Shown one piece after another: positions 18,603-35,970 of a stretch of 41,143 bases of DNA. A program made the position numbers and the translations under genes. The notes beneath the pieces were generated by a model that saw nothing but the letters and a program-made list of their open reading frames with translations, made no database searches and was not told the DNA's origin. Source of the DNA: Gammaproteobacteria bacterium (lineage in GTDB: Bacteria; Pseudomonadota; Gammaproteobacteria; Xanthomonadales; Wenzhouxiangellaceae); the NCBI GenBank assembly GCA_003565625.1, contig PXBD01000013.1:1-41143 (forward strand), given 5' to 3'. Each line of letters begins with the position of its first letter. The first letter of the stretch is position 1.

Positions 18603-19613
18603 TCAGGGCCGAATCTCGACCAGCTCGACCCGGCGATTGCGGGCGCGGCCCTCTTCGCTGCGGTTGGAGGCGATCGGGGCCATCATGCCGGCTCCGGCTG
18701 AATTCAGGCGGGCGCGGTCGATGCCGTGTTCGCGCACGAGGTAGTCGACCACTGCGGTGGCGCGCGCCATAGACAGGCGCAGGTTGTAGTCGAAGTCGCC
18801 GACGTCATCGGTATGACGGACCACCAGCAGGCCCAGCTCGCTGCGATCTTCCAGCAGGCTGGCGATGGTTGCCAGGCTGTCGGACGACTCGGGCAGGATG
18901 TCGTCGGAGTCGAATGCGAACAGGATGTCCTGGATGGCAACCCGCCCTTCGCTGATCAGGCCCTGTTCCATTTCGCCCGCCGTCAACGGCTGGTGATCCA
19001 TGCCAACCTGCATTTCTTCTTCGGTTACCACGGTCACGGCGTATTCGACCCGGCTGGGCCGCCCGGCGAGGATGTAGGTTGCGACCGCGACATACACCGG
19101 TTCTTCGCCGTGGCGGGCCAGCAGGTAATACACCGGGTCGCGTCGGCCCAGGCTGGCGGTGCTGGTGTAGTCGCCGCGGTAGTCGGCCCCGATCATGAAG
19201 TTGCGAACCCGAACATTGCCTGGGGTGCCGCTGGACAGCAACTCGGCGCCAGCGCCGGCAAACACCATTTCGAATCCTGCCTCGGGCAGCGTCTGTTCAA
19301 AACTGCGATGCACGCGCAGCGCGCTGGTCTCCGCTTCCTCGAAGCGGTAGCGCAGCTGCAGCCACTCGCCTTCAAGCACGAGGGTATCTGTATGTTCACG
19401 TTCCGGGTGATCCCAGGGGCCGGCCGGAAGGGTGACGCTGCGAAACTCATTGGTTTCCATGGAACCAATGTATGAGCCGGCAATACGCGGAACGAGTGGG
19501 TGATCGCCCGTACCCTCGGCATCCTGGGCAAGCCCCGGCGGGCTGGCAAGAGCCAATAACAGAGCAGCGGCGACAATGACGAGGTAGAGGGGAAAGGGAG
19601 TAGGCAGAGTCAT
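18603..19613 (-). CDS. OmpA-family peptidoglycan-binding protein
   Basis: A 336-residue envelope protein. Signal peptide is LYLVIVAAALLLALASPPGLA. The middle region (about 40-215) has no named domain. The C-terminal OmpA-like domain begins near residue 222 (ILFAFDSDDILPESSDSL) and contains VVRHTDDVGDFDYNLRLSMA, RATAVVDYL and the closing GRARNRRVELVEI, which form the diaminopimelate-binding surface. In place of the usual outer-membrane barrel the N-terminal part looks soluble. ATG 19613 is preferred over ATG 19637 because AGAGGA sits six bases before it. It is the first gene of a likely two-gene unit with the secreted protein downstream. Confidence 0.88.
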   Translation of the reverse strand: MTLPTPFPLYLVIVAAALLLALASPPGLAQDAEGTGDHPLVPRIAGSYIGSMETNEFRSVTLPAGPWDHPEREHTDTLVLEGEWLQLRYRFEEAETSALRVHRSFEQTLPEAGFEMVFAGAGAELLSSGTPGNVRVRNFMIGADYRGDYTSTASLGRRDPVYYLLARHGEEPVYVAVATYILAGRPSRVEYAVTVVTEEEMQVGMDHQPLTAGEMEQGLISEGRVAIQDILFAFDSDDILPESSDSLATIASLLEDRSELGLLVVRHTDDVGDFDYNLRLSMARATAVVDYLVREHGIDRARLNSAGAGMMAPIASNRSEEGRARNRRVELVEIRP

Positions 19614-19734
19614 CAAATCCTCTTGTTCAGTGGTCATTCCCCCCTCATGCTACGAAAACCACGCTCGTTTTTCCGGAAATCGCCGACATTCGGGGGTTGA
19701 AGCTCCGGTTCTGGCTGAGTCGGGCCGTGGCGCG

Positions 19735-20625
19735 TCAGGTTTCGGCCCGGATGGCGGCAATGCGGGCATCCTTTTCCTGCCATCGTTCGGCCACCCAGTG
19801 GTGCATGAACGAACGGAAGGCCGGGTCGTTGGCATAGTCGCCTTGCCATAGCGCCGGGTCCAGCGGGCGGTGCTGGATGTCGACGATCACCCTGGCAACC
19901 TGCCCGCTGATCAACTCCCAGAATCCTGGTATGGATTGGCCCGGATACACGATGGTGACATCGAGTAGGGCATCCAGCTCTTGCCCCAACACAGCCAGAG
20001 TAAAGGCAAGACCGCCGGATTTCGGCCGCAGCAGGTGCCGATAGGGCGACTGCTGTTGCGCATGCTTTTCGGGCGTGAAGCGCGTGCCCTCCAGGTAGTT
20101 GACGATGGTCACCGGCAGATCGCGGAATTTCTCGCAGGCCCGGCGGGTGATTTCCAGATCCTTGCCTTTTTTCTCAGGATGCCGGGCCAGATAGGCCTTG
20201 CTGTAGCGTTTCATGAACGGATAATCCAGCGCCCAGAATGCCAGCCCGAGCAGCGGCACCCAGATCAGCTCTTTTTTGAGAAAAAACTTGAAATAAGGTG
20301 TTTTGCGGTTGAGCGCCTGCACCAGCGCCGGAATGTCAACCCAGCTCTGGTGGTTGCTGATGACCAGGTAGGAGGTGTCTTTCCGCAGGCCTTGAACGCC
20401 GCGAATGTCCCACTGGGTGGGCAGCAGCCACGCAAACAAGGCCTTGCTGATCTCCGCCCAGGTCTCGGCAACCCACATCACGGCCCGCGCGCACTCGGCT
20501 TTGGGCCGCTGGCCTGGCAGCAGCAGCCGGAGCAGGGCCAGCAACAGCATCGGTCCGATCAGCACCAGGGTGTTGATCAGCATCAGGAGCATCAATGCAA
20601 TGGCGGTAATGGCTCTGCGCATCAT
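19735..20625 (-). CDS. Lysophospholipid acyltransferase, YihG-like
   Basis: Membrane acyltransferase of the PlsC superfamily, 296 residues. A hydrophobic segment near residues 7-36 anchors it. The HX4D catalytic motif is NHQSWVD (H92, D97), and the acceptor-binding motif is EGTR (179-182) in VNYLEGTRFTPEKH. KKELIWVPLLGLAFWALDYP and FMKRY are characteristic of the YihG/AGPAT-like branch that acylates lysophosphatidic acid or related lipids. Two ATG codons (20625, 20622) are possible starts; neither has a Shine-Dalgarno. It is divergent from jetA and likely unrelated to the defence operon. Confidence 0.9.
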   Translation of the reverse strand: MMRRAITAIALMLLMLINTLVLIGPMLLLALLRLLLPGQRPKAECARAVMWVAETWAEISKALFAWLLPTQWDIRGVQGLRKDTSYLVISNHQSWVDIPALVQALNRKTPYFKFFLKKELIWVPLLGLAFWALDYPFMKRYSKAYLARHPEKKGKDLEITRRACEKFRDLPVTIVNYLEGTRFTPEKHAQQQSPYRHLLRPKSGGLAFTLAVLGQELDALLDVTIVYPGQSIPGFWELISGQVARVIVDIQHRPLDPALWQGDYANDPAFRSFMHHWVAERWQEKDARIAAIRAET

Positions 20626-20707
20626 GACGGTGTTGTGCAGTGAGAAACGCCTTCATCATACGAATCCCGGCCACTATTCTGCCACCGGCACGGGGCAATT
20701 CCGCCGC

Positions 20708-20713
20708 TACAAT
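20708..20713 (+). promoter_or_regulatory. -10 box of jetA, placed for a leaderless transcript
   Basis: TACAAT ends six bases before the jetA ATG at 20720, so RNA would start at or beside the start codon. No Shine-Dalgarno precedes jetA. A -35 match is weak. Inference only. Confidence 0.4.
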
Positions 20714-20719
20714 GAGCCC

Positions 20720-22156
20720 ATGGACTTTGACACGCTGCGCGCTCTGCGCGACGCCCATGGCGGCTGGCGCCTGTTGCTGGCCGACCATGCGCCGATGATT
20801 GTCAGCTTTTTCCATCGCTGTTTCATCGAGTCCAACGTGCGCGCGATGGCAGAGGGGGAACTGGTCAGCCGGCTTGAAGATCATCTGGCCGGTATCCGCG
20901 AGGTGCACGGCGAAGATACCTACCCGCGTTCGGCGCTGGCTTATCTGAAGGACTGGGCCGAGGATCGCCGGGCCTGGGTTCGACGCTACTACGTGGCCGA
21001 CAGCGACGAGGCCCATTACGACTTGACTCCGGCGGCCGAAGGCGCCATTCGCTGGCTGGCCGGCCTGGAGCAGCCGCGTTTTGTCGGCGCCGAGTCGCGC
21101 CTGCTGACGGTATTTGATCTGCTCCAGCAGATCGTGCGCGGCACCGAGACCGACCCGGCCGCACGCATTGCCGAGCTGGAGGGTCGGCGCGGTGCCATTG
21201 ATGCTGAAATCGAGCGTATCCGGGCCGGCGAGTTGTCCTTGATGGACGACACCCGGCTCAAGGAGCGTTTCCTGCAGATGGCCGATACGGCGCGGGCGCT
21301 GCTGGCCGATTTTCGCCAGGTCGAGCATAATTTCCGTCAGCTGGATCGTCAGGTTCGCGAGCGTATTACCTGGTTCGACGGCGGCAAGGGAGAGGTGCTG
21401 GAGGAAGTGTTCGGTGAGCAGGATGCCATTTCCGATTCCGACCAGGGTCGCAGCTTCCGCGCGTTCTGGGATTTTCTGATGTCGCCGGCGCGGCAGGAAG
21501 AACTCAGTGCCCTGCTGGAGCGGATCTTCGAGCTCGAGGCGGTCATCGACCTCAAGCCCGATCGCCGCCTCAAACGCCTCCACTACGACTGGCTGGAAGC
21601 CGGCGAGGTCACCCAACGGACGGTCGCGCGCTTGTCCGAGCAGTTGCGGCGTTTTCTCGATGACCAGGCCTGGCTGGAAAACCGGCGCATCATGGAGTTG
21701 ATCCGCAACCTGGAGCGCAAGGCTGTGGCTGCGCGGGCAGAGCCGCCTCGCCAGCTCGGCATGGCGCTGGATTTACCGATCCCGGAGCTGAACCTGGTCA
21801 TGGATCGACCGCTGTTCAAGCCGCCGCTGCGCCCGGATATCACCGCGAATGTCACCCTGGCCGACGACCAGCTAATTGATGCCGACGCGCTGTTCGAGCA
21901 GGTCCATGTCGATCGCCTGGCCCTGGAATCCGGTATCCGGCGGGCGCTGCAGGAACGCGACCAGATCAGTCTGGCCGAGCTGGTCAAGCTGCGCCCCCTT
22001 GAGCAGGGACTGGCCGAGCTGGTCACTTATCTCGCCATTGCGGCCGAGAGCGAAGGAGGTCTGATTGATGACCACCAATGCCAGACCCTGTCCTGGATCC
22101 AGGCCGGCGGTCGCCGGCGCGAAGCACGTGTGCCTCTGGTAGTCTTCTCGCGATGA
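20720..22156 (+). CDS. jetA: Wadjet JetA, DUF3375 kleisin-like subunit
   Basis: A 478-residue DUF3375 protein. It has the family N-terminus (FDTLRALRDAHGGWRLLLAD, then FFHRCFIESNVRAM), the FVGAESRLLTVFDLLQQIV block, DPAARIAELEGRRGAIDAEI, DFRQVEHNFRQLDRQVRERI and DSDQGRSFRAFWDFLMSPAR. JetA is the MukF-like kleisin that bridges the SMC heads and holds JetB. Together JetABC extrude DNA loops and JetD cuts small circular DNA, which protects against plasmids. The start ATG 20720 coincides with the family start; the open frame upstream is antisense to the acyltransferase gene. It is the first gene of the operon and overlaps jetB by ATGA. Full length, no defect seen. Confidence 0.93.
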   Translation: MDFDTLRALRDAHGGWRLLLADHAPMIVSFFHRCFIESNVRAMAEGELVSRLEDHLAGIREVHGEDTYPRSALAYLKDWAEDRRAWVRRYYVADSDEAHYDLTPAAEGAIRWLAGLEQPRFVGAESRLLTVFDLLQQIVRGTETDPAARIAELEGRRGAIDAEIERIRAGELSLMDDTRLKERFLQMADTARALLADFRQVEHNFRQLDRQVRERITWFDGGKGEVLEEVFGEQDAISDSDQGRSFRAFWDFLMSPARQEELSALLERIFELEAVIDLKPDRRLKRLHYDWLEAGEVTQRTVARLSEQLRRFLDDQAWLENRRIMELIRNLERKAVAARAEPPRQLGMALDLPIPELNLVMDRPLFKPPLRPDITANVTLADDQLIDADALFEQVHVDRLALESGIRRALQERDQISLAELVKLRPLEQGLAELVTYLAIAAESEGGLIDDHQCQTLSWIQAGGRRREARVPLVVFSR

Positions 22157-22737
22157 TCGAGCCGTCCCCTGATCCCCGTCTTTCGCTGCCGCTGATTGCG
22201 CTGTTCAAGGGTGTGATGTATGCCGATCAGGGCCGCGAAAACTGGCAGCACCTGGTCGAGAGCCAGGCCGCCATTCGCGACTACGTAGCGGTTCTCGGCC
22301 TGGAGCTGATCGTGGACGAAGCCGAGGGCTATGCTTTCCTGCGCCAGCGCCCGGCCGAGGAGGACCAGGATGAACTGCCCCGGTTGATGGCGCGTCGCCA
22401 GTTGAGTTCCCCGGTCAGCCTGTTGCTGGCGCTGCTGCGCAAAAAGCTGGCCGAGCATGATGCCGGTGGAGCCGAACTGCGCCTGGTGCTCTCGCGGGCC
22501 GACATTGCCGACCTGGTGCGCCTGTTCCTGCCGGACTCGGCCAACGAGGCCAAGTTGCTGGACCGGGTTGGCATGGACATCAACAAGGCGGTCGAGATGG
22601 GGTTCCTGCGCAAGCTCAGAGGTCAGGAGGATCAGTACGAGGTTCGGCGCATACTGAAGGCTTATGTCGACGCCCAGTGGCTGGCCGAATTCGACAAGCG
22701 CCTGGGTGACTATGCCGCCCACCAGGCCGGGGACTGA
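22153..22737 (+). CDS. jetB: Wadjet JetB, DUF4194 MukE-like subunit
   Basis: A 194-residue DUF4194 protein whose ATG overlaps the jetA stop in ATGA, so it is translationally coupled. Segments such as PLIALFKGVMYADQGRENWQ, GYAFLRQRP, RRQLSSPVSLLLALLRKKL and VGMDINKAVEMGFLRKL fit the MukE/MksE-like winged-helix dimer that binds the kleisin. An open frame from 22078 is an artefact of overlap with jetA. Its job is to bind JetA and DNA and regulate the SMC motor. jetC begins four bases after its stop. Confidence 0.92.
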   Translation: MIEPSPDPRLSLPLIALFKGVMYADQGRENWQHLVESQAAIRDYVAVLGLELIVDEAEGYAFLRQRPAEEDQDELPRLMARRQLSSPVSLLLALLRKKLAEHDAGGAELRLVLSRADIADLVRLFLPDSANEAKLLDRVGMDINKAVEMGFLRKLRGQEDQYEVRRILKAYVDAQWLAEFDKRLGDYAAHQAGD

Positions 22738-22741
22738 CCGG

Positions 22742-25700
22742 ATGGAGGGACTTGCGCTCGATTTCGCCCCCGACGATACCCGCGCCGGCTATCGCCTGCA
22801 CCGGATCGAGTTGCTCAACTGGGGTACGTTCGACCGCCAGGCCTGGCGCCTGAATCCGGATGGCGCCAACTGCCTGGTGACCGGTGATATCGGCTCCGGC
22901 AAGTCCACCGTGGTCGATGCCATTACTACCCTGCTGGTGCCGGCGCAGCGCATCACCTACAACAAGGCTGCCGGAGCCGAGGCCCGCGAGCGCAGCCTGC
23001 GTTCCTACGTGCTGGGCCATTACAAGTCCGAGCGCGGTGAAGGCGGGCTTTCGGCCCGGCCGGTGGCTCTGCGCGACCACAACAGCTACAGCGTGATCCT
23101 CGGCCACTTCTACAACCAGGGCTTCGATCGCCATGTCACCCTGGCCCAGGTGTTCTGGATCAGCGACCATCGTGGCCAGCCCGACCGCTTCTACCTTGTG
23201 GCCGACCGGCCGCTGACCATCCACGAGCACTTCTCGGGTTTCGGTAGCGACCTGAATGATTTGCGCAAGCGATTGCGCGCACTGGATCACGTCGAGCTGC
23301 ATACGGCCTTCCCGGCTTATGGCGCCAGCCTGCGGCGCAAACTGGGCATTGCCAGTGACCAGGCGCTGGAGTTGTTCAACCAGACCGTGTCGATGAAATC
23401 GGTCGGCAATCTGACCGAGTTCGTGCGCGAGCACATGCTGCAGGCGGCCGAGACCGAGCAGCGCATCAGCGAGTTGATCCGTCATTTCGACGACCTCAAC
23501 CGGGCCCATGAAGCCGTTCTACAGGCGCGCGATCAGATCCAGGCGCTCACGCCGATCGTCGCCGATGCCGATGAGTACGCCGAACGCAGCCAACAGACGA
23601 CAGCATTACGCGGCTGCCGCGACGCCCTGGCTGCCTGGTTTGCCAGCCTCAAGATCGAGTTGCTCGATCGCCGGCTGCAAGACCTGGCCGGTGAACAAGC
23701 TCGACTTACCGATCGCTTCGAGGCACTCAAGCGCACCCGGGTCGAGCAGCGCCGGCAGCGCGATGCACTGGGCCAGGCCATTGCCGCCAATGGCGGCGAC
23801 CGGCTCGAGCGTCTGCGCGAGGAAATCGAACGCTGTCGGGCCGAAAAGGGCGAGCGCCGGCGCGAAGCCGGACGCTACCGCGAACTCGCGGCCAGCCTGG
23901 ATTTGCCGGACGCGACCGATGCCGATATCTTCCGGGACAACCGCACTGCGCTGGCAGGTCTGAGCGAGCAGACTCAGGCCCGCCAGGCCGAGGCCCAAAA
24001 CGAGCGCACGGATCAAACCGTGGCCATTCGGGATTTGCGCACCCAGCATGCAGAGCTTGACGCCGAACTGGATTCGCTGAAAGCCCGCCGCTCCAACCTG
24101 CCTTCAGCCATGCTGACGCTGCGCGAGAAACTCTGCCAGGCATTGAACCTGGCGCCGGAGGATCTGCCTTTTGCCGGGGAATTGATCCAGGTGCGGGATG
24201 AGGAACGCGACTGGGAAGGTGCGATCGAGCGCTTGCTGCACAATTTTGCCTTGTCGTTGCTGGTGCCGGATGCCCACTATCGGGCCGTGGCCGAATGGGT
24301 AGACAACACGAGGCTGCGCGGCAGGCTGGTGTATTACCGCGTACGCGAGGCACGCGCGGCCAGTCTGGACAGAGCCCAGCCCGATGCCTTGAGCCGCAAG
24401 CTGGCCATCCGCACCGACAGCGGCCACTATGCCTGGCTGGAGCAGGAGTTGACCCGGCGCTTTGATCATGTCTGCTGCAGCAATATGGATCGGTTTCGCC
24501 GGGAAACCCGCGCCATCACGCGGGCCGGCCAGATCAAGACCGGTGGCGTGCGCCACGAAAAAGATGACCGCCACGCCATCGACGATCGCACCCGCTATGT
24601 CCTCGGCTGGAGTAACGAAGACAAGATCCGAGCGCTGAGTGAGCAGCGCGCCCAGCTTGAAAAACGCATCCAGATCGTGGCCGATGGCATCGCCAGGCTC
24701 GATGACGAGCTCAAGGACCTGGGAGCCCGCCTCGGCGATCTCAGTCGACTCGATATGTTCGAGGAGTACCAGCGCCTGAACTGGCAGGAAATGAGCTCGC
24801 GCATCACCGAGCTGGAGGCCGAAGAACGCGCCCTGCGCGAGGATTCGGACATTCTGAAAACCCTGCGTGCCAGTCTCGATGAGCTCGAACAGGCCAGTGA
24901 GCAAACCGAGTCCGAGCTTGAGCATCGCCAGAAGTTGTTGAACACCGCCGAAGAGCGTGCCCGCAGCGCGTGCGAAGAGCGGCTCGAGGCGGAAATGGTG
25001 GTCCAGGAAATCGATGAACCCGGCCGCGCGCAGTGGTTTGCGCGCCTGGCGGAGTTGCGCGCGCAGGCGCTGGACCAGCAGCCCATCCACCTGAACGGGA
25101 TCGATGCGCGCCAGCGCGAGTTCCGCGCCTGGCTGACCGCGCGAATCGATGCCGAGGACAAGGCCCTCGGCCGGCTGAATGATCGCATCATCCAGGCAAT
25201 GCAGAAATTCCGGCATCGCTGGCCGCAGGCCGCGCGCGAAGCCGATGCCAGCGTGGCCGCAGCGGCCGAATACCGGCGTCTGCTCGATAGCCTCACCAGC
25301 GATGATCTGCCGCGTTTTGAAAAACGCTTCAAGGATTTGCTCAACGAGAATACGATCCGCGAGGTGGCCGGATTCCAGGCCTTGCTGCACCGCGAGCGCG
25401 AACAGATTCGCGAGCGCATCGAGACCATCAACCGCTCCCTGCACGAGATTGACTACGAGAAGGGCCGCTATATCCGGCTGCTGGCCGAAACCGCACCGGA
25501 TGTCGACATCCGCGAGTTCCAGCACAAGCTGCGGGCCTGCACGGAGGGCGCCGTGACCGGCTCGGAAGACGCCCAGTACTCTGAGCAGAAGTTTTTGCAG
25601 GTACGCGACATCATCGATCGTTTCCGCGGGCGCGAAGGTGCGTCCGAGATGGACCGCCGCTGGACGCGCAAGGTTACCGACGTGCGCAACTGGTTCGTGT

Positions 25701-26131
25701 TCTCGGCCTCAGAGCGCTGGCGCGAAGACGATCGTGAGCACGAGCACTACGCCGATTCCGGCGGCAAGTCGGGCGGGCAGAAGGAAAAGCTGGCCTACAC
25801 CGTGCTGGCCGCCAGCCTGGCCTACCAGTTTGGCCTGGAGTGGGGCGAGAAGCGCTCGCGTTCGTTTCGTTTCGTGGTCATTGATGAGGCCTTCGGGCGT
25901 GGCTCGGATGAGTCGGCCCGCTACGGGTTGGAACTGTTTGGCCGGCTCAACCTGCAATTGCTGATTGTCACCCCGCTGCAGAAAATCCACATCATCGAGC
26001 CGTTCGTGGCCAGCGTCGGCTTTGTCCACAATCCCGACGGTATGCAGTCGATGCTGCGCAATCTCTCGATCGAGGACTACCGCGCCGAGCGCGACGCGCG
26101 CCAGGGGCTGCACGCCGCCCCAACCGGGTAG
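22742..26131 (+). CDS. jetC: Wadjet JetC, SMC/MukB-like ATPase
   Basis: A 1129-residue SMC-type ATPase, the motor of Wadjet. The N-terminal head has LLNWGTFDRQ and Walker A GDIGSGKS (48-55). Long Glu/Arg/Gln-rich coiled coils occupy about 240-480 and 640-940 around a hinge-like middle (about 480-620, DLPFAGELIQVRDEERDWEG). The C-terminal head has the signature SGGKSGGQKEK (1006-1016) and Walker B FVVIDEAF with D1048 and E1049, followed by GRGSDESARYGLELFGRL. All ATPase residues are present. It is shorter than MukB, as usual for JetC. ATG 22742 lies four bases after jetB. Homologues extrude DNA loops and recognise small circles by failing to expand them. Confidence 0.94.
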   Translation: MEGLALDFAPDDTRAGYRLHRIELLNWGTFDRQAWRLNPDGANCLVTGDIGSGKSTVVDAITTLLVPAQRITYNKAAGAEARERSLRSYVLGHYKSERGEGGLSARPVALRDHNSYSVILGHFYNQGFDRHVTLAQVFWISDHRGQPDRFYLVADRPLTIHEHFSGFGSDLNDLRKRLRALDHVELHTAFPAYGASLRRKLGIASDQALELFNQTVSMKSVGNLTEFVREHMLQAAETEQRISELIRHFDDLNRAHEAVLQARDQIQALTPIVADADEYAERSQQTTALRGCRDALAAWFASLKIELLDRRLQDLAGEQARLTDRFEALKRTRVEQRRQRDALGQAIAANGGDRLERLREEIERCRAEKGERRREAGRYRELAASLDLPDATDADIFRDNRTALAGLSEQTQARQAEAQNERTDQTVAIRDLRTQHAELDAELDSLKARRSNLPSAMLTLREKLCQALNLAPEDLPFAGELIQVRDEERDWEGAIERLLHNFALSLLVPDAHYRAVAEWVDNTRLRGRLVYYRVREARAASLDRAQPDALSRKLAIRTDSGHYAWLEQELTRRFDHVCCSNMDRFRRETRAITRAGQIKTGGVRHEKDDRHAIDDRTRYVLGWSNEDKIRALSEQRAQLEKRIQIVADGIARLDDELKDLGARLGDLSRLDMFEEYQRLNWQEMSSRITELEAEERALREDSDILKTLRASLDELEQASEQTESELEHRQKLLNTAEERARSACEERLEAEMVVQEIDEPGRAQWFARLAELRAQALDQQPIHLNGIDARQREFRAWLTARIDAEDKALGRLNDRIIQAMQKFRHRWPQAAREADASVAAAAEYRRLLDSLTSDDLPRFEKRFKDLLNENTIREVAGFQALLHREREQIRERIETINRSLHEIDYEKGRYIRLLAETAPDVDIREFQHKLRACTEGAVTGSEDAQYSEQKFLQVRDIIDRFRGREGASEMDRRWTRKVTDVRNWFVFSASERWREDDREHEHYADSGGKSGGQKEKLAYTVLAASLAYQFGLEWGEKRSRSFRFVVIDEAFGRGSDESARYGLELFGRLNLQLLIVTPLQKIHIIEPFVASVGFVHNPDGMQSMLRNLSIEDYRAERDARQGLHAAPTG

Positions 26132-26142
26132 GCAAACCAGCC

Positions 26143-27354
26143 ATGGTCGAAAAGCACTGGTCACGACCACAGGATTTCGTCGCCCAGTTGCGCAAGCTCT
26201 GGGACTCCGGTCGCCTGCTGGCTGATCGCCTGGATGGCGAGCAGGCCTTGTTTCCGTTTCCATTGCGCCTGCGCAAGGCCGGCTCGCGCGATCTCAGCGA
26301 TCATTTCGACGCTGTGCGCGATTGGGTCGCCGAGTTGATCGAGCATTCGCGCGATCGGCGGGGCTACGGCTATAGCATTGAGTGGCGCGAGGTCAACCAC
26401 CGCACGCGCGGAGCCAACCGTCTGCCGAAAGCCATTGTCGTACCAAGCGCGGAAGATGCGCTGCGGCTGATCGGCAAGACGGCCCCGGCGCGCCGCTTTG
26501 ATCAGCTGGCCACTGCGTTGCTGGCTGAGTTCCCGGCCTTGCGCGCCTGGCTGGCCAGGCGTCCGCTGGAAGCACTGAACCGCGCTGACGAGTGGCCGCG
26601 ATTGAGCGCCATCCTGCGCCATTTTCTTGCCTCCCCGCGCCCCGGGGTGTACCTGCGCCAGCTCGATATTCCGGGGGTGGATACCAAGTTCATCGAGACC
26701 CGGCGGGGGCTGATTGGCGAGCTGCTGGATGCGGTCTTGCCGGCCTCGGCGATTGATCCCGCGGCTGTGGGGGCGGCCGCCTTCAACCGGCGCTATGGCC
26801 TGGCCAGCCGGCCGGTCATGGTGCGGTTTCGCATTCTGGATCCGGCGCTGGCGCTTCGTGGGGTCACGGACTTGTCCGTGCCGGTCGAGGAATTCGCGCA
26901 GCTGGAATTGTCGGTTGAGCAGGTCTTTATCACCGAAAACGAGATCAACGGCCTGGCGTTTCCGAATCATCCGCGCTCCATGGTGGTCTTCGGTCTGGGT
27001 TACGGCCTGGATCGCCTGGCCAATATCGACTGGCTGGCGGCTGCGCGCTGCTGGTACTGGGGCGACATCGACACCCACGGTTTTGCCATCCTCAACCGTT
27101 TGCGGGCCTACCTGCCTGCCGTGCGGTCTTTTCTGATGGATCGCGCGACCCTTGATGCCCACCGTGAAATGTGGGGCCGAGAACCCGAGGATCGGCGCTT
27201 CCGCGGCGCGCTCGGCCGCCTCGAGGAGCCGGAGCAGGCGCTGTACCAGGCTTTGCGCGATGATGTGCTCTCGCCGTGCCTGCGCCTGGAGCAGGAACGC
27301 ATTCGCTACCTCTGGCTGGAGGAGTTTCTCGGCGGCCTGCAATCCGGCGGCTGA
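26143..27354 (+). CDS. jetD: Wadjet JetD, Toprim nuclease (DUF3322-DUF2220)
   Basis: A 403-residue protein and the cleaving subunit of Wadjet. The N-terminal DUF3322 part has YSIEWREVNHRTRGANRLP. The C-terminal DUF2220 part is a Toprim fold related to the topoisomerase VI A subunit: E265 in VFITENEINGLAFP, then the DxD pair D308 and D310 in CWYWGDIDTHGFAILNRL. These residues bind the metal for double-strand cleavage. The motif YLRQLDIPGVDTKFIE fits the family too. It starts 11 bases after jetC in the same direction, completing the type I order A-B-C-D. It ends six bases from the convergent SNF2 helicase gene. No lesion is seen, so the system should be functional. Confidence 0.94.
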   Translation: MVEKHWSRPQDFVAQLRKLWDSGRLLADRLDGEQALFPFPLRLRKAGSRDLSDHFDAVRDWVAELIEHSRDRRGYGYSIEWREVNHRTRGANRLPKAIVVPSAEDALRLIGKTAPARRFDQLATALLAEFPALRAWLARRPLEALNRADEWPRLSAILRHFLASPRPGVYLRQLDIPGVDTKFIETRRGLIGELLDAVLPASAIDPAAVGAAAFNRRYGLASRPVMVRFRILDPALALRGVTDLSVPVEEFAQLELSVEQVFITENEINGLAFPNHPRSMVVFGLGYGLDRLANIDWLAAARCWYWGDIDTHGFAILNRLRAYLPAVRSFLMDRATLDAHREMWGREPEDRRFRGALGRLEEPEQALYQALRDDVLSPCLRLEQERIRYLWLEEFLGGLQSGG

Positions 27355-27360
27355 TCGTTC

Positions 27361-30300
27361 TCAGACCGCCTCGAGCAGAGCAGACACGGTGGCCTCGTCG
27401 ATGGGTGGCTGGTCCTGAGCACGCCCCTGGCCGTGGACCTGGTCGGCCAGGCGTTGCTTGCGCTCCTGCAGCGCCAGAATCTTTTCTTCCACCGTACCTT
27501 CGGCCACCAGCTTGTAGACGAATACCGGCTTGTCCTGGCCAATGCGGTGGGCCCGGTCGGTGGCCTGATGTTCGACCGCCGGATTCCACCACGGATCGTA
27601 GTGGATCACGCTATCGGCCTCGGTCAGGTTCAGCCCGACGCCGCCGGCCTTGAGGCTGATCAGGAACAGGTTGGCTTGACCGGAACGAAAGCGCTCGATG
27701 GCCTGCTCGCGCTTGCGGGTCTGGCCGGTCAACTTGGTGTAGGTGATGCCACGCCGGCTGACTTCGCTCTCGATCAACCCCAGCATGGTGGTGAACTGGG
27801 AAAACAGCAGCACGCGGCGGCCCTCGTCGATCAGTTCGGGGAGCAGGTCGAACAGCATCTCGAACTTGGCTGATCCCGCGGCCGTGGTGCCCCGCGTGCC
27901 GGCCGGCAGCAGGCGCGGGTCGCAGCACACCTGGCGCAGCTTGAGCAGGGCTTCCAGGACGATGATGTGGCTGCGCGCCAGGCCGCGATTGGCAATGGAC
28001 TGGCGGACCTTCTTTTCCATGGTCAGGCGCACGCTTTCATACAGCATGGCCTGTTTTTCGCCCAGGGCAACCGTCCGCAGCACCTCCGTTTTGGGCGGCA
28101 ATTCGCTGGCGACGAGGTCTTTGGTCCGGCGCAGGAGAAACGGCGCCGTGCGGCGGGTCAGGCGCTGCAGTTTCTCGCCGTCGCCGTGTTCCTCGATGGG
28201 GGGGCGGTATTGACGCCGAAATTCCTGGTGGTCGCCGAGGAAGCCCGGCATCAGAAAATCAAACTGGGCCCACAACTCGCTCAGGTGATTTTCCATCGGC
28301 GTGCCGGTCAGGCACAGGCGATGCGCGGCCCGCAGGCGGCGCGCCACGTGGGCTGCCTGCGCCTTTGGGTTCTTGATTTGCTGGGCTTCATCAAGGATCA
28401 GGTAGTGCCATTGCTGTTTGAGCAGCACATGGCGGTCGCGCGGCAGCAACGGGTAGGTGGTCAGCACCAGGTCGGCCTGGCCAATCTGCTCGAAGCGTTC
28501 GAAGCGCTCCGGGCCCTGCAGTACCAGCACCTTCAGTCGGGGAGTGAACTTTTCGGCCTCGCGCTGCCAGTTGCTCATCAGACTGGTCGGCGCCACGAGC
28601 AGACAGGGCTGGCGCATGCGCCCGGCGCGTTTTTCCACCGCCAGATGGGCCAACGCCTGGATGGTCTTGCCCAGCCCCATGTCGTCGGCGAGGATGCCGC
28701 CAAAGTCATGACTGCGCAGGAACTGCAGCCAGTTCACGCCATGTTGCTGATAGTCGCGCAGTTGTCCCTTGAAGGTGGTGGGCAGCTTGACGACAGGCAG
28801 TCCGGAAAAATCCCGCAGACGGGCGGCCAGTTTGCGCAACGAGGTGGCCCCCTGGATGGGAATCCCGTCCAGATCGTTCAGGCGGCCGAGATCAGGTCGC
28901 GGCAGCTCCAGGCTATCACCGTTGATCTGGTCGAATAATTCGATAATGGTGGTCAGGATCGGCTCGATGCGTTCACGGGGAACGGCCACGAAGTGACCCT
29001 GGCCGGCGTTGAGGTACAGCGTGGGCGGCAGTTCCCCGGGCTGGTAGTGATGCAGCAGCTCGCTGACCAGCGGCAACAACGGCATGATCCAGCCCTCAAA
29101 CTCCAAATCAAAGCGCAGGCTGAACCAGTTGTTGTCGGACTCTTCGACTTCGCCCTGGATGCCGCTGGCCCGGCTGACTGTCACGCCCTGGGCCTCGAGA
29201 CGTTCGATCTGCCAGCCTGCCTGCTCCAGCTGTGGGGCCTGCTCGTCGAGCCACTGGAACCAGGCATCGCGCAGGGCGACATCCTGCAGCCAGCCCGGCT
29301 GGATGTACTGGTCGGTGCGTCCGTGCAGCGGTACCAGACCATGGGCCTGGAGCTGTTGCAGGGCGGCCGTCTCGGCCGCCGGGTCGCGCTGAATACGGAC
29401 CACGCCGGCCTCGTCTTCGCGCACCACGACCATTTCTCCACCCGGATCGAAGCGTTCTTCACCGTAGACAAAGCCGGGGTTGGCCGTTGCCAGCTGCGGC
29501 ACGCGCGGATCAAAATCAATCCGGAGCAGCGGCACCGGCGGCGTTGCAATCTCGCGCTGCTCGATCGGGATCGGGCCCGGCAGGCCGGGCAGTTTCAGGG
29601 CCAGGGCGCGCGCCACGGCCGGCGCCCGGGCCACCGGGATGGCCGGTGCCGTCCGCAGCGCACGCACGCTGGCCGGATCCATCGCGTCCGGACACTCGAC
29701 CGAACCGACCAGGCGCTGATCCACATCCAGGTAGGTCGGCGGGTCAAGATCGAGCAGCTGACCGCCTTGTTCGATCGACAGGTCGCATCGGAAAACCTTC
29801 TCGCTGCGTACCCAGTTCACCCGCAGCTGGCGGGAAGGGCCGAGGCCAAGCGCCTGATCGCGATGGCCGGACCAAAAGCAACGGCCGGTTGCGACCATGC
29901 GCGCAAGCGCCAGGCCACCGCTGGCGCCGCTCAGTTGGTGGCCGCCGTAGACCCCGGGCATGCGGGCCCGGATCAGGGCCAGGATCTCTTCGTCTTCGCT
30001 GGTCTGGTAGGCGGGTCGAATGCGCGGATTGGTCAGGTTGGCCGGGATGGTTGGCCGGCCCGAGTTCCAGCCGCCGTCCGATCGCGGTTTGGCAACGACG
30101 AACTCCGCTTCCAGCACGCCGGGATTGCGCGAACTGGCTGAGAGCAGGTAGAGCAGGGCTTCTTTCCCGTCTCCACCCGGCTCGCCTGTCGGCGCTGACA
30201 GTTCGCCCAACCAGCGATCGACAGGGTCGCGACCGGTTGCCGGCCGACCCGCAACCAGGCGCTGCCATTCCAGCGTCACCGCCACAACATGCTTGCAGTT

Positions 30301-30573
30301 GAACCCGACCGGGCAGTCACAGCCGCCCAGCAGCATCGGGCCTTGGTAGCCACTGCCAAAAGTGATTTCCTGTTCGTAGGGTTCGGGGTCGCTGCCCTGG
30401 CAGCGCCCGAGAATGGTCAGATCGCCTTTTTCATCGATGATGTCGACAATCTCGGCCCGGCCTTCGCGAAAGTAGGCTGAGCCCCGCTGCCAGGCGCCGG
30501 AGTCGACTTCCCGTTCCAGCCACTGCGGTGACCACTGTTTTGTTCGGCGACGATGGCGAGCTTTTTTTGCCAC
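27361..30573 (-). CDS. SWIM zinc-finger SNF2 helicase (DEAD/H, Swi2/Snf2 family)
   Basis: A 1070-residue ATPase that translocates on double-stranded DNA. A SWIM zinc finger lies near the N-terminus (CDCPVGFNCKH, residues 85-95). A large middle region (about 110-580) has no named domain. The SNF2 motor starts with LRDYQQHGVNWLQFL and GGILADDMGLGKTIQALAHL (Walker A K636), then LILDEAQQIKNP (DEAQ 728-731), LCLTGTPMENHLSELW, LLFSQFTTMLG and ATDRAHRIGQ. All helicase motifs are present. GTG 30573 is chosen as start because the basic AKKARHRRRTKQWSPQWL segment fits; TTG 30621 is an alternative. Such helicases are common in bacterial chromosomes and sometimes sit in defence islands. Here it converges on jetD. 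Confidence 0.92.
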   Translation of the reverse strand: MAKKARHRRRTKQWSPQWLEREVDSGAWQRGSAYFREGRAEIVDIIDEKGDLTILGRCQGSDPEPYEQEITFGSGYQGPMLLGGCDCPVGFNCKHVVAVTLEWQRLVAGRPATGRDPVDRWLGELSAPTGEPGGDGKEALLYLLSASSRNPGVLEAEFVVAKPRSDGGWNSGRPTIPANLTNPRIRPAYQTSEDEEILALIRARMPGVYGGHQLSGASGGLALARMVATGRCFWSGHRDQALGLGPSRQLRVNWVRSEKVFRCDLSIEQGGQLLDLDPPTYLDVDQRLVGSVECPDAMDPASVRALRTAPAIPVARAPAVARALALKLPGLPGPIPIEQREIATPPVPLLRIDFDPRVPQLATANPGFVYGEERFDPGGEMVVVREDEAGVVRIQRDPAAETAALQQLQAHGLVPLHGRTDQYIQPGWLQDVALRDAWFQWLDEQAPQLEQAGWQIERLEAQGVTVSRASGIQGEVEESDNNWFSLRFDLEFEGWIMPLLPLVSELLHHYQPGELPPTLYLNAGQGHFVAVPRERIEPILTTIIELFDQINGDSLELPRPDLGRLNDLDGIPIQGATSLRKLAARLRDFSGLPVVKLPTTFKGQLRDYQQHGVNWLQFLRSHDFGGILADDMGLGKTIQALAHLAVEKRAGRMRQPCLLVAPTSLMSNWQREAEKFTPRLKVLVLQGPERFERFEQIGQADLVLTTYPLLPRDRHVLLKQQWHYLILDEAQQIKNPKAQAAHVARRLRAAHRLCLTGTPMENHLSELWAQFDFLMPGFLGDHQEFRRQYRPPIEEHGDGEKLQRLTRRTAPFLLRRTKDLVASELPPKTEVLRTVALGEKQAMLYESVRLTMEKKVRQSIANRGLARSHIIVLEALLKLRQVCCDPRLLPAGTRGTTAAGSAKFEMLFDLLPELIDEGRRVLLFSQFTTMLGLIESEVSRRGITYTKLTGQTRKREQAIERFRSGQANLFLISLKAGGVGLNLTEADSVIHYDPWWNPAVEHQATDRAHRIGQDKPVFVYKLVAEGTVEEKILALQERKQRLADQVHGQGRAQDQPPIDEATVSALLEAV

Positions 30574-30638
30574 GATGGCGAGACAAGTGCAGTAGGGTAG
30601 TGCCTTATTGTCGCAGCCCAAGGGGGTGGATCAAGTCC

Positions 30639-32069
30639 ATGGACAACAACGATTCGACGAAGCCAGAAGAATACCTCGAGAATTTCACCTTTGATGAGTT
30701 GAAAATCGGCCAGCAGGCCGGTCTTTCGCGCACCCTGTCGAAGGAAGACATCGATCTTTTCGGAGTCATGTCGGGCGACGTCAACCCGGCCCATTTCGAT
30801 GCCGTCTACGCCAACAGCACGGTGTTTGAGGGCATCATCGGCCACGGCATGTGGCCCGGCGCCCTGATTTCGGCCGTGCTTGGCACCGCTTTGCCGGGCC
30901 CGGGCACCATTTATCTTAGCCAGGATCTGCGCTTCCGCGGGCCGGTGCGGATTGGCGATACCGTTGATGTGCGCGTCACCGTGCGTGAAAAGCGCTCCGA
31001 CAAGCCGATCGTGACCCTGGGGTGCGAGTGTCGCAACGACTTGGGTGAGCTGTTGGTCAGCGGCACGGCGGTGGTGCTGGCCCCGACCGAAAAAGTCCGT
31101 CAGAAACGAGCCGAACTGCCCGAGGTGCACTTTCGCTACCACGACCGCTACCGCGAACTGATCGACTCCTGCGCCGGCATGGAGCCGCTGCGCACCGGGA
31201 TTGTGCACCCGGTCAAGCCCCAGAGCATCCGCGCCATTTTCCAGGCGGTGGACGAAAACATCATCATTCCGGTGCTGGTGGGCCCGGCCGCGCGCATTCA
31301 GGCCGCTGCCGAGCAAGCCGAGGTGGATATCTCGGGCTATGAAGTGATCGATACCGAGCACTCGCATGCGGCGGCCGCCGAGGCCGTTCGCCTGGCCGCC
31401 AGCGGCCGCCTGCAGGCGCTGATGAAAGGGGCGCTGCACACCGATGAATTGCTTTCTGCCCTGGTCTCCTCGGCCGGCGGGCTGCGCACCGAGCGCCGGA
31501 TCAGCCATGCCTACGTCATGGACGTGCCCAACTATCACAAACCGCTGATCATCACTGATGCGGCGATGAATATCCCCCCCAGCCTGGACGTCAAGGCCGA
31601 TATCTGCCGCAACGCGATCGACCTGTGGCACACCGCCTGCGGGGACGGCGAGCAGCGTCCGAAAGTGGCCTTGCTGTCGGCGGTCGAGACGGTCAACGGA
31701 CGGATGCAGTCGACCCTTGATGCAGCAGCCCTGTGCAAGATGGCCGACCGCGGCCAGATCGAGCATGCCGTGCTCGACGGCCCGCTCGGTCTGGATGCCG
31801 CGATCAGCCGCCAGTCGGCCGACAACAAGGGGATCGACTCCAAGGTGGCCGGTGATGCCGATATTCTGGTTGCCCCCGATATCGAGGCCGGCAACATGAT
31901 CGCCAAGCAGCTGACCTTTCTCGGCAACAGCGACGCGGCCGGGCTGGTCCTGGGTGCGCGCGTGCCGGTCATTCTGACCAGTCGCTCGGACAACTTGCGG
32001 ACCCGGCTGATGTCGTGTGCCCTGGCACTGCGCGTGGCTACCGCACGCACGACCGGTTCCCCGCCGTGA
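30639..32069 (+). CDS. MaoC hydratase-phosphate acetyl/butyryltransferase fusion
   Basis: A 476-residue bifunctional protein. The N-terminal MaoC/hotdog part (about 15-150) has LFGVMSGDVNPAHFDAVYA, the catalytic Asp/His hydratase motif, then GHGMWPGALISAVLG. The C-terminal PTA/PTB part (about 165-470) has HPVKPQSIRAIFQAVDE, LMKGALHTDELLSALV, VMDVPNYHKPLIITDAAMN and DILVAPDIEAGNM. It can hydrate enoyl-CoA and convert acyl-CoA plus phosphate to acyl-phosphate. The downstream kinase overlaps by GTGA and would make ATP and free acid. Start ATG 30639 is preferred over earlier frame extension; a G-rich AGGGGGTGGA lies upstream. Whether acetyl-, propionyl- or butyryl-CoA is used is not readable. Confidence 0.93.
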   Translation: MDNNDSTKPEEYLENFTFDELKIGQQAGLSRTLSKEDIDLFGVMSGDVNPAHFDAVYANSTVFEGIIGHGMWPGALISAVLGTALPGPGTIYLSQDLRFRGPVRIGDTVDVRVTVREKRSDKPIVTLGCECRNDLGELLVSGTAVVLAPTEKVRQKRAELPEVHFRYHDRYRELIDSCAGMEPLRTGIVHPVKPQSIRAIFQAVDENIIIPVLVGPAARIQAAAEQAEVDISGYEVIDTEHSHAAAAEAVRLAASGRLQALMKGALHTDELLSALVSSAGGLRTERRISHAYVMDVPNYHKPLIITDAAMNIPPSLDVKADICRNAIDLWHTACGDGEQRPKVALLSAVETVNGRMQSTLDAAALCKMADRGQIEHAVLDGPLGLDAAISRQSADNKGIDSKVAGDADILVAPDIEAGNMIAKQLTFLGNSDAAGLVLGARVPVILTSRSDNLRTRLMSCALALRVATARTTGSPP

Positions 32070-33190
32070 GCGCGGTCCCGGCCGTGGTGGTGCTCAATGT
32101 GGGCTCCTCCAGCGTCAAGTTTCGCGTCCTCGGCGCCGAAACTGCCCTGCCGGTGCTGCTGGATGGTCGGGTCACCGGGATCGGCTCCCGGCCTGAGCTG
32201 AAGCTGGACGATCAAAAGCCGCGCGCCCTGGATGAGTCGACGGATCAGACCGCGGCGATTGAGCTGGTGCTGGACCAGGTCCAGTCCGAGGATCGGCGCT
32301 GGAGGCTGGTGGCGGCGGGTCATCGCATTGTTCATGGCGGTGAAGAGTTTCGCCAGCCGGTGAGACTGGATGCTGGCTGCCTCGAGCGGCTGGAGCGCTA
32401 TACGCCCCTGGCGCCGCTGCACCAGCGCCACAACCTGGCCGCGGTTCGAGTCCTGGCCGGCCGCGAACCCGATTTGCCGCAGGTAGGCTGTTTCGATACC
32501 GCTTTTCACGCCGACCATGACGCTGTGACCCACAGCTATGCCCTGCCGGATCAGCTCCGTGCGGCGGGGATTCGCCGTTATGGTTTTCATGGTCTTTCCT
32601 ACGAGTGGATTGCGCAGTTGCTGGCGCGCGAGCCCGGCGGCGGCCCGCGGCGGGTGGTGGCGGCACACCTGGGCAACGGGGCCAGCCTGTGCGCAATGCA
32701 GCGCGGGCAAAGCGTGGACACCACCATGGGCATGACGGCACTGGAGGGGCTGCCGATGGGCACGCGCTGCGGCGCGCTGGATCCGGGCGCAGTGATCTAC
32801 ATGCTGCGCAATTGCGGCCTGTCGGTCGACGAGGCAGAGCAAGTGCTGCACGACGAGTCGGGTCTGAAGGGTCTGTCGGGTGGTGTTTCGGAGATGTCCG
32901 CGCTGCTTGCCAGCGACAGTTCCCGGGCGGAGCTGGCGGTGCGCTACTTCGTGCTGCGCACGGCCCAGAAGATTGCCGAGATGATGGTGTCGATCGGTGG
33001 CATGGATTGTCTGGTCTTTACCGGCGGCATTGGTGAACATGCCGGGCCGGTGCGCGAGCGTATCGTCGAACGTCTGGCGTTTTTGCCGGATTTCGACGTG
33101 CGCGTGATTCCCGCTGACGAGGAACGCATGATTGCCGCCCATACGCTGCGATTTGTGCAAACGGCAGGCAACCGGGGGCGTGCAATTTGA
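32066..33190 (+). CDS. ackA: Acetate/propionate kinase
   Basis: A 374-residue member of the acetate/propionate/butyrate kinase family, making ATP from acyl-phosphate. Motifs are VVVLNVGSSSVKFRV (phosphate loop), GHRIVHGGE, CFDTAFHA, RRYGFHGLSYEWI, AHLGNGASLCAM, TALEGLPMGTRCGALDPG and LVFTGGIGEHAG. GTG 32066 is chosen because it overlaps the stop of the upstream gene in GTGA and puts the phosphate loop close to the N-terminus; a GTG at 32015 is possible but lies within the upstream coding sequence. Translational coupling implies equal output of both enzymes. The ppdK gene follows after 32 bases, possibly in the same transcript. The acyl group is not determined by the motifs. Confidence 0.92.
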   Translation: MSAVPAVVVLNVGSSSVKFRVLGAETALPVLLDGRVTGIGSRPELKLDDQKPRALDESTDQTAAIELVLDQVQSEDRRWRLVAAGHRIVHGGEEFRQPVRLDAGCLERLERYTPLAPLHQRHNLAAVRVLAGREPDLPQVGCFDTAFHADHDAVTHSYALPDQLRAAGIRRYGFHGLSYEWIAQLLAREPGGGPRRVVAAHLGNGASLCAMQRGQSVDTTMGMTALEGLPMGTRCGALDPGAVIYMLRNCGLSVDEAEQVLHDESGLKGLSGGVSEMSALLASDSSRAELAVRYFVLRTAQKIAEMMVSIGGMDCLVFTGGIGEHAGPVRERIVERLAFLPDFDVRVIPADEERMIAAHTLRFVQTAGNRGRAI

Positions 33191-33222
33191 TATTCTGAAA
33201 CTTGGACAAACTGGAACCGGGC

Positions 33223-35970
33223 ATGATGACTTCTCGCTGGATGTACTCGTTTGAAGAGGGTGACGGCCATAACAAGGCGCTGTTGGGGGGCAAGGGTGCA
33301 AATCTGTGCGAAATGACCCAGATCGGGATCAATGTGCCGCCCGGCTTTGTGGTAACCACCGAGGCCTGCACCGCCTACCTCGAAGATCCTGAAAAAAAAC
33401 TCCCCGACGGGTTGATGGAACAGGCACGCGCCGAGATGGCGGCGCTGGAAAAACGCACCGGCAAAGGCTTTGGCGATGCGGAACACCCGCTGCTGGTTTC
33501 GGTGCGCTCCGGCTCGGCGCTGTCGATGCCGGGCATGATGGACACCATTCTCAACCTCGGTCTCAATGCGCAAACCCTGGAGGGATTGATTCGCCAGACC
33601 GGTAACGCTCGCTTTGCCTACGACGCCTATCGTCGCTTCATCCAGCTGTTCGGCAAGGTTGCGCTGGGGGTATCCGATGAGTTGTTCGACCATGAATTCG
33701 ACCAGATCAAGGAACGGTTCGGGGTGCGGGCTGATCTGGATTTGACCGCCGAGGCCCTGTCCGAAATCAGCCAGCGCTTCCTGGAGGTGGTGGCCAGTCA
33801 GACCGGACGCGCGTTCCCGTCGGATCCCTACGAGCAGTTGGAGTTGGCGATCCGGGCCGTGTTCCAGTCCTGGACGGGACGACGGGCAGTCGATTACCGG
33901 CGCGAATTCGGGATTCGGCCGGAGCAGGCCAGCGGCACTGCCGCCAATATCTGCACCATGGTGTTCGGCAACATGGGCAACGACAGCGCCACCGGGGTGG
34001 GCTTTACCCGGAATCCGGGCGACGGCGAAAACCAGCTCTACGGGGAATACCTGGTCAACGCCCAGGGCGAAGACGTGGTCGCCGGTATTCGCACCCCGCG
34101 ACCCATCGTTGAGCTCGAACGGGAAATGCCCGACAACTACGCCGAACTGCTCGCCTTGCGCGAGCGCCTGGAACAGCATTACAAGGAAGTGCAGGATTTC
34201 GAGTTCACCATCGAACGCGGCACCTTGTATTGCCTGCAAACTCGCAACGGCAAGATGAATGCTGCCGCCATGGTGCGCACGTCGGTGGAAATGCACGAAG
34301 AAGGACTGATTACCCGTGACCAGGCCCTGGCTCGTGTTCAGCCCGCGCAGCTCGAACAGATGCTGTTTCCCGGCCTCGACCCGACCCATACAGCCAAGCC
34401 GGTCGCTACTGGTCTGCCCGCCTCGCCGGGCGCTGCCAGTGGCCAGGTTGTTTTTGACGCCGACCGGGCCGTGGAACTGGGTCAGCAAGGCTTGCCGATC
34501 CTGTTGTTGCGCGAAGAAACCAAGCCTGAAGACATTCACGGTTTTTTTGCCGCGCGCGGCATTCTTACCAGCCGCGGCGGCAAGACTTCGCATGCGGCCG
34601 TGGTGGCCCGCGGCATGGGCAAACCCTGCGTTGCCGGAGCCGAAGGCATCAGCGTCAATGTCGTCACCCGAACGGCGATGGTCGGACCCCACTCCATCAG
34701 CGAGGGCGATATTCTGACGATTGACGGCAGCAATGGGGACGTCTACCTCGGCGAGGTGCCGACCGTAGAACCGGAATTCACCGATAGCCTCACGACCCTG
34801 CTGGAATGGGCCGACGCGCGTGCCCGACTCAAGGTGCGCGCCAACGCCGATACCCCCGACGACGCTGAACGGGCGCTGCGCTATGGCGCCACCGGCATCG
34901 GGCTGTGCCGGACCGAGCGCATGTTCAACGCCGCCGATCGCCTGCCGATCGTGGTCGACATGATCGTGGCCGAAACCTCGGAAGAACGGGCCGAGGCACT
35001 GGAACGGCTGCTGCCCATTCAGCGCGCGGATTTCGCCGGCCTGTTCCGGGCCATGGCACCGCGTCCGGTCACCATTCGGCTGCTCGATCCACCCATCCAT
35101 GAGTTTCTTCCCGAGGAGCGCCAGCTCGAAGAAGAAATCAACCGCCTGCATGACCTGCGTGGTGCCGTGCGCGGCATGGAAATACTGGCCGAGACCAGTC
35201 GTCTGGGGGCCGAGGCTTCCGTTTCGTCCGGTCTTCAGGAACTGGGCAGTACGCGGCTTCTGGACGCCGCGTTGGCTCGCAAGGAACTGGTGCTGGCCAA
35301 GGTGCGTGCCCTGCATGAGGTCAATCCCATGCTCGGCCACCGCGGCGTGAGGTTGGGCATCACTTTTCCGGAGATCTACCGCATGCAGGTTCGGGCGGTG
35401 CTGGAGGCGGTCGTGGAGTGCCTCAAGGATGGCGTGGAAATCGACCCCGAGATCATGGTGCCGCAGGTCTGCACGGTCCAGGAGCTGATGCTGGTTCGGA
35501 CCCAGCTCGAAGAGGTACGGGCCGAGGTGGAAGCCGAGCACGGCATCGAAGTGCCGTGCCGCTTCGGGTCGATGATCGAGGTCGTTCGGGCCTGCCTGCG
35601 CGCCGAGAGCATGGCCGAGGTGGCCGAGTTCTTCTCGTTTGGCACCAACGATCTGACCCAGGCGGTGTTTTCGTTCTCGCGCGAGGATGCCGAGAACAAG
35701 TTTCTGCCGATGTACAACGAGCGCGGCATCCTCCGGGACAACCCGTTCGAGGTGCTCGATATCAAGGGCGCCGGTCGACTGATGTCGCTTTCGGTGGAAT
35801 GGGGCCGGTCTACCCGGCCTGACCTGCACGTCGGCATCTGCGGCGAGCACGGCGGTCACCCGGAGTCCATCCGCTTCTGCCACAGCATCGGGCTGGATTA
35901 CGTGTCCTGCTCGGCACCGCGGGTACCGATCGCCCGCCTGGCCGCGGCCCAGGCGGCGCTGGAGGACTGA
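33223..35970 (+). CDS. ppdK: Pyruvate, phosphate dikinase
   Basis: A 915-residue enzyme interconverting pyruvate, ATP and phosphate with PEP, AMP and pyrophosphate. The ATP-grasp domain begins with LLGGKGANLCEM and includes SVRSGSALSMPGMMDTILNL. The swivelling phosphohistidine domain has H457 in GGKTSHAAVVARGMGKPC. The C-terminal PEP/pyruvate barrel has GIGLCRTERMF, MLGHRGVRLGI, PCRFGSMIEVVRAC, FSFGTNDLTQAVFSFSR and catalytic C873 in VGICGEHGGHPE. ATG 33223 is selected; a TTG seven codons earlier is weaker. It follows ackA in the same direction, linking acyl-phosphate ATP formation with PEP metabolism. It ends seven bases from convergent dapA. Somewhat longer than the usual 870-890 residues. 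Confidence 0.95.
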   Translation: MMTSRWMYSFEEGDGHNKALLGGKGANLCEMTQIGINVPPGFVVTTEACTAYLEDPEKKLPDGLMEQARAEMAALEKRTGKGFGDAEHPLLVSVRSGSALSMPGMMDTILNLGLNAQTLEGLIRQTGNARFAYDAYRRFIQLFGKVALGVSDELFDHEFDQIKERFGVRADLDLTAEALSEISQRFLEVVASQTGRAFPSDPYEQLELAIRAVFQSWTGRRAVDYRREFGIRPEQASGTAANICTMVFGNMGNDSATGVGFTRNPGDGENQLYGEYLVNAQGEDVVAGIRTPRPIVELEREMPDNYAELLALRERLEQHYKEVQDFEFTIERGTLYCLQTRNGKMNAAAMVRTSVEMHEEGLITRDQALARVQPAQLEQMLFPGLDPTHTAKPVATGLPASPGAASGQVVFDADRAVELGQQGLPILLLREETKPEDIHGFFAARGILTSRGGKTSHAAVVARGMGKPCVAGAEGISVNVVTRTAMVGPHSISEGDILTIDGSNGDVYLGEVPTVEPEFTDSLTTLLEWADARARLKVRANADTPDDAERALRYGATGIGLCRTERMFNAADRLPIVVDMIVAETSEERAEALERLLPIQRADFAGLFRAMAPRPVTIRLLDPPIHEFLPEERQLEEEINRLHDLRGAVRGMEILAETSRLGAEASVSSGLQELGSTRLLDAALARKELVLAKVRALHEVNPMLGHRGVRLGITFPEIYRMQVRAVLEAVVECLKDGVEIDPEIMVPQVCTVQELMLVRTQLEEVRAEVEAEHGIEVPCRFGSMIEVVRACLRAESMAEVAEFFSFGTNDLTQAVFSFSREDAENKFLPMYNERGILRDNPFEVLDIKGAGRLMSLSVEWGRSTRPDLHVGICGEHGGHPESIRFCHSIGLDYVSCSAPRVPIARLAAAQAALED

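Follow-up and report, generated by a model that had tools for sequence, protein, structure and literature searches.

A probable complete type I Wadjet operon in a Wenzhouxiangella-like genome, and toxin-antitoxin cassettes at the jetC-jetD border of its relatives

The stretch of DNA analysed here, referred to as the window, comprises 41,143 nucleotides and is the whole of contig C1 of a bacterial genome assembly (2.8 Mb, 95 contigs, 89.5% complete) whose host we infer to belong to the genus Wenzhouxiangella. An earlier note had described four of its genes as a complete type I Wadjet operon, and this locus raises the questions of whether the operon is intact and of that type, what it might do in its host and how it compares with the operons of its relatives.

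Four intact genes were found on the + strand, in the order jetA-jetB-jetC-jetD, between positions 20720 and 27354 of the window. The first, jetA (20720-22156), codes for a DUF3375 kleisin-like subunit of 478 amino acids, jetB (22153-22737) for a DUF4194/MukE-like KITE subunit of 194, jetC (22742-26131) for an SMC/MukB-like ATPase of 1129 and jetD (26143-27354) for a Toprim nuclease of 403. The order DUF3375, DUF4194, SMC ATPase, Toprim nuclease given in the earlier note was recovered with all four reading frames on this strand, and their coordinates return the same gaps of -4, 4 and 11 bases, the start ATG of jetB overlapping the jetA stop by 4 bases. The last gap, the jetC-jetD border (26132-26142, 11 bases), is the site of a toxin-antitoxin cassette in some relatives. 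A second Wadjet copy in the same genome was considered and discarded: the only other DUF3375 match, on contig C66, reached 18.4 bits, below the cut-off, over 46 of 474 positions and was taken as chance, and the searches with JetC and JetD returned one match each.

The products were compared with protein family models and with proteins of solved structure. JetA matched Pfam DUF3375 at 515.8 bits, the PADLOC model JetA1 (PDLC00457) at 693.4 bits along positions 1-478 of the 480 in the profile, and the solved JetA 8q72 (E 7.6e-23). For JetB, the matches were Pfam DUF4194 (154.7 bits) and MksE (64.2 bits), PADLOC JetB1 (288.3 bits) and, weakly, the solved JetB 8dk1 (E 5.2e-4). JetC matched AAA_29 and SbcC_Walker_B of Pfam at 84.7 bits each, PADLOC JetC1 (PDLC00512) at 1597.5 bits along profile positions 6-1121 of 1123 and the solved JetC 8dk2 (E 1.7e-69), and JetD matched JetD_C (197 bits) and DUF3322 (194.8 bits) of Pfam, PADLOC JetD1 (481 bits) and the solved MksG 8b7f and JetD 7til and 8q72. 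As judged from the sequences, the Pfam matches of all four proteins exceed chance by far. NCBIfam added two weak ATPase matches for JetC, below the cut-off, and gave no match for JetA, JetB or JetD. The subunits are homologous by sequence to those of the solved JetABCD proteins (8dk1-3, 8as8, 8q72, 7til) and of Corynebacterium glutamicum MksBEFG, the source of MksG 8b7f. Both are distant from the window by score, JetB reaching only the E value given above.

With respect to type, JetC scored 1597 bits against JetC1 versus 22.5 at best against JetC2, and JetD 481 against JetD1 versus 18.7 against JetD3, whereas JetA and JetB matched only type I models in PADLOC at E 0.001; models of type II and III Wadjet stayed at or below 22.5 bits for all four proteins. 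JetC also matched LmuB, the SMC-like protein of Lamassu (43.9 bits in PADLOC). Four adjacent genes on one strand, with their best scores against type I models, place the operon by these comparisons in type I Wadjet. The profile matches cover almost the whole of each model within one uninterrupted reading frame, so the given sequence is free of hidden frameshifts.

The Walker A, signature, Walker B and Toprim acidic residues that the note had listed were all located. In JetC, they lie at residues 48 (GDIGSGKST), 1006 (SGGKSGGQ) and 1045 (VVIDEAFG), and in JetD at 264 (TENE, with E265) and 307 (GDID, with D308 and D310), together with E383 and E385. To follow these positions among relatives, a search of genome contigs yielded 130 stretches with a JetC relative, 80 of which were kept as loci, and the window was aligned with loci from this set, one tblastn piece per locus (81 rows for JetC and 75 for JetD). 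Among the rows with a letter at the position concerned, the Walker A lysine did not vary (78 of 78), nor did the Walker B DE (80 of 80), and the signature differed only in its first position, which is S or A (80 of 80). In JetD, E265, D308 and D310 were likewise constant (73 of 73 such rows), as were E383 and E385 (71 of 71). When JetD was aligned with MksG 8b7f, counting by hand, E265, D308, E383 and E385 fell opposite E236, D279, E349 and E351, with the same spacing of 43 residues between the first two in both proteins. PMC10123090 reports that the nuclease activity of MksG is drastically impaired in E236A and D279A mutants; it also proposes Y258 as the active-site tyrosine and gives it as absent from the JetD of another system. 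In the same hand-counted alignment, JetD Y287 is opposite Y258.

All four jet genes are under purifying selection, with dN/dS of 0.10-0.17 for jetA, jetB and jetC and 0.14-0.18 for jetD (two relatives per gene), values that are rough, since dS is already fairly high (0.64-1.06). The earlier description as a complete type I Wadjet operon agrees with gene content, order, spacing, type I profiles, catalytic residues and selection, and we put the probability that the window operon is a complete type I Wadjet (JetABCD or MksBEFG-type) system at about 95%.

A different reading would make it a condensin of MksBEF type whose main task is chromosome organisation and whose JetD is idle or regulatory. 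The match of JetB to Pfam MksE (64 bits) is in its favour, as is the relatedness of Pseudomonas aeruginosa MksBEF, which acts on the chromosome according to PMC10586767. However, jetD is intact, has retained the acidic residues of its active site and evolves under purifying selection, and its position 11 bases downstream of jetC sets the operon apart from the nuclease-less chromosomal MksBEF, which has no JetD/MksG gene. The distribution in the genus is also patchy, JetA being found in 13 of 30 genomes with the own genome included (8 of the 15 good ones), a pattern that in our view suits defence better than maintenance of the chromosome. A chromosomal condensin is, on balance, highly improbable.

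As for the other subunits, JetC and JetD were each found in 10 of the 30 genomes of the genus, and the contig breaks off within jetA or jetB in the three with JetA only (G008, G011 and G014). A broken jetD suspected in G024, from a single TAA in the search table, was dismissed, the stop falling at aligned residue 400 of 403, where we take it for the natural terminus. Among 369 genomes drawn from the class, the own genome being one of them, relatives of JetC were present in 38 and of JetD in 32 (E 1e-20), and 17 plasmid records in PLSDB matched JetC, all at less than 60% identity. All four jet genes were held by 65 of the 80 kept loci, always in the order ABCD and on one strand, the other 15 being without one or two of them by this search. 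In one Myxococcus sp. locus (L072:11361-19360), jetA, jetB and jetC were present, and a tblastn search of the following 8 kb at E 1e-8 detected no match to the window JetD.

By analogy with its family, a type I Wadjet operon of this kind would be expected to restrict plasmids in its host. Motor activity, sensing of size and shape, and cleavage are carried over here from published work on other members, in which JetABC is a loop-extruding SMC motor, and the JetD nuclease becomes active once a small circle has been extruded completely and the two motors have met (PMC10586767). In the window system, JetC dimers with the kleisin JetA and the KITE protein JetB would make up an ATP-hydrolysing SMC motor that works by DNA loop extrusion. 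If the substrate is a small circle, the complex's two motors would meet once the whole molecule had been extruded, and their meeting would release JetD, a dimeric Toprim endonuclease, to cut it. Plasmids below about 50-100 kb would therefore be lost, while the chromosome and linear DNA would escape. One difference from the published systems concerns JetB, for which an IFDR motif is placed at the N-terminus in the same review (PMC10586767). This motif was not seen in the window JetB when its full sequence and alignment columns 1-29 were inspected by eye, and the contact between JetB and JetD may therefore differ from the published one.

The spacing of the genes suggests that jetABCD are co-transcribed. 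The expected place of a promoter, by position only, is the region of 94 bases (20626-20719) that separates jetA from a divergent acyltransferase gene (19735-20625, - strand). A scan of 20400-27600 found no sigma-70-like site where 1.1 were expected by chance, a result that says little as a single consensus was used. That null result and the neighbours, one divergent and one convergent gene, would suit a silent copy, intact in sequence and without expression; against it stand the absence of internal stops and the dN/dS of 0.10-0.18 across all four genes, and we hold silence to be very unlikely.

The window locus is one more intact member of a well-studied plasmid-defence family, and in itself an ordinary, standard type I Wadjet. 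What sets it apart from some of its relatives lies at the jetC-jetD border. The nearest named full operon, that of Wenzhouxiangella limi (G001), has the same four genes in the same order and strand, with identities to the window of 85% for JetC, 86% for JetA and 78% for JetD. In W. limi, 798 bases lie between the aligned ends of jetC and jetD, in contrast to 11 in the window, and they hold an antisense cassette of FitAB type. No publication naming both Wenzhouxiangella and Wadjet was found in the literature search.

Such a cassette, with a PIN-domain toxin and a FitA-like ribbon-helix-helix antitoxin (Pfam matches on L017, L019, L021 and L101), was seen antisense in the border in four genomes. 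Ten genomes of the genus have an assembled jetC-jetD border, and both cassette genes are present in four of them (G001, G024, G015 and G020; L134:12261-12952, L135:12190-12863, L137:11213-11884 and L143:7969-8624, the first on the same contig as L017). Three (G017, G005 and G006; L139, L141 and L142) retain just a remnant, derived from the second half of the PIN gene, and three have no cassette, with 11 bases in the window and 107 and 32 between aligned ends in G018 and G023 (the corresponding loci being L130 and L136). Pairwise identities among the four nested PIN proteins are 67-87%, and G024 and G015 are the closest pair in the PIN protein as in the antitoxin, JetC and JetD. A further copy of this PIN family (64-67% identity) lies on contig C54 of G014, which is without jet genes; the remaining full-length PIN relatives in the genus do not exceed 50% identity to the W. 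limi protein.

In the JetC tree, the window was sister to W. limi, which has the cassette (support 97/99), and G018, without it, was sister to G020, with it (100/99). The JetA and JetD trees grouped the window with W. limi and with G005, which has a remnant, at weaker support (93/93 and 83/80) and with no settled order among the three. All five outgroup operons in the trees are without the FitAB-type cassette, one of them (L022) having a different pair. These placements of the window favour loss over a cassette never present, a hint that its lineage once had the cassette and lost it. Operons may also have gained the cassette repeatedly or exchanged it with one another. As a tentative reading, to which we give slightly less than even odds, type I Wadjet operons would be recurrent docking sites for toxin-antitoxin pairs: an antisense FitAB-type cassette, ancestral in the genus, would have occupied the jetC-jetD border, where it may have penalised operon loss, and would later have decayed in several lineages, the window being a cured form in which a clean loss restored the tight spacing. 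If cassettes do repeatedly enter and leave Wadjet operons, the genus offers natural forms with and without one, which would suit a test of whether the toxin-antitoxin pair guards the operon against loss. Publications on toxin-antitoxin inserts in Wadjet operons were not found by title or abstract opening, in a search whose partial coverage makes this no proof of novelty; the observation appears new to us. A HicA fused to an SMC protein is reported in PMC10865869.

Across the kept loci, inserts of at least 200 bases were found at 12 of 74 jetC-jetD borders, 7 of 71 jetA-jetB borders and 3 of 75 jetB-jetC borders. Their frequency at jetC-jetD differed from that at jetB-jetC (p 0.015) and not from that at jetA-jetB (p 0.33), and four of the 12 jetC-jetD cases came from one genus, the own one (L016 = G006, L017 = W. 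limi, L019 = G020 and L021 = G015), so a preference for this border was dropped and is not claimed. Eight jetC-jetD inserts lie outside the genus, five of them scanned with Pfam and three (L030, L035 and L063) outside that scan. Four of the five look toxin-antitoxin-like: a nucleotidyltransferase-HEPN pair (L022:6371-7113), a PIN toxin with a partner lacking a Pfam match (L037:3418-4166), a TumE-like toxin with an HTH protein (L074:11505-12168), and an insert that splits the end of jetC and combines a MazE-like antitoxin, a PIN toxin and an HsdR-like piece (L080:11376-12104). The fifth (L068:11479-13404), with an AAA ATPase and a DUF4276 protein, is not a toxin-antitoxin pair by its Pfam matches. 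Four wide borders were also fetched from the class draw; the one in G395 (the L037 record) has the PIN gene, and nothing related to the W. limi pair was present in G038 (the L035 record), G315 and G278, whose open frames were viewed by eye. Among jetC-jetD inserts, toxin-antitoxin pairs are thus frequent, but not the rule.

The surroundings of the operon in the window were also analysed. The SNF2-type helicase gene beyond jetD (27361-30621, - strand) was rejected as a fifth operon gene, being convergent with jetD. Closer copies of this helicase occur in G018 (75%), G024 (72%), G014 (68%) and also G017, there in pieces of 55-83%. The gene lies next to jetD in the window and in G018, is about 3.1 Mb away in G024, beside AbiE-like genes, and in G017 was absent from the 9.4 kb fetched beyond jetD; in G014, jetD is not assembled. 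Its PADLOC matches to DpdE and ZorD, of up to 755 bits, are read as a resemblance of helicase domains. Ten window proteins were scanned with PADLOC, and the only other match was a ZorB-like one to an OmpA-domain protein (18603-19637). Orthologues of the acyltransferase, 73-79% identical, exist in six other genomes, and their surroundings (stretches of 3.9-12 kb) did not establish an empty insertion site, the only matches there to the other window proteins used as queries being to 6326-7537 (82%, L125) and to a GGDEF-domain protein (36%, L128). Pfam also identified an AbiEi/AbiEii type IV toxin-antitoxin pair at the window's left end (271-2011), and a gene row at 30528-35970 comprises a protein with MaoC and phosphate acetyl/butaryl transferase domains (30528-32069), a member of the acetate kinase family (32015-33190) and a PEP-utilising enzyme (33202-35970).
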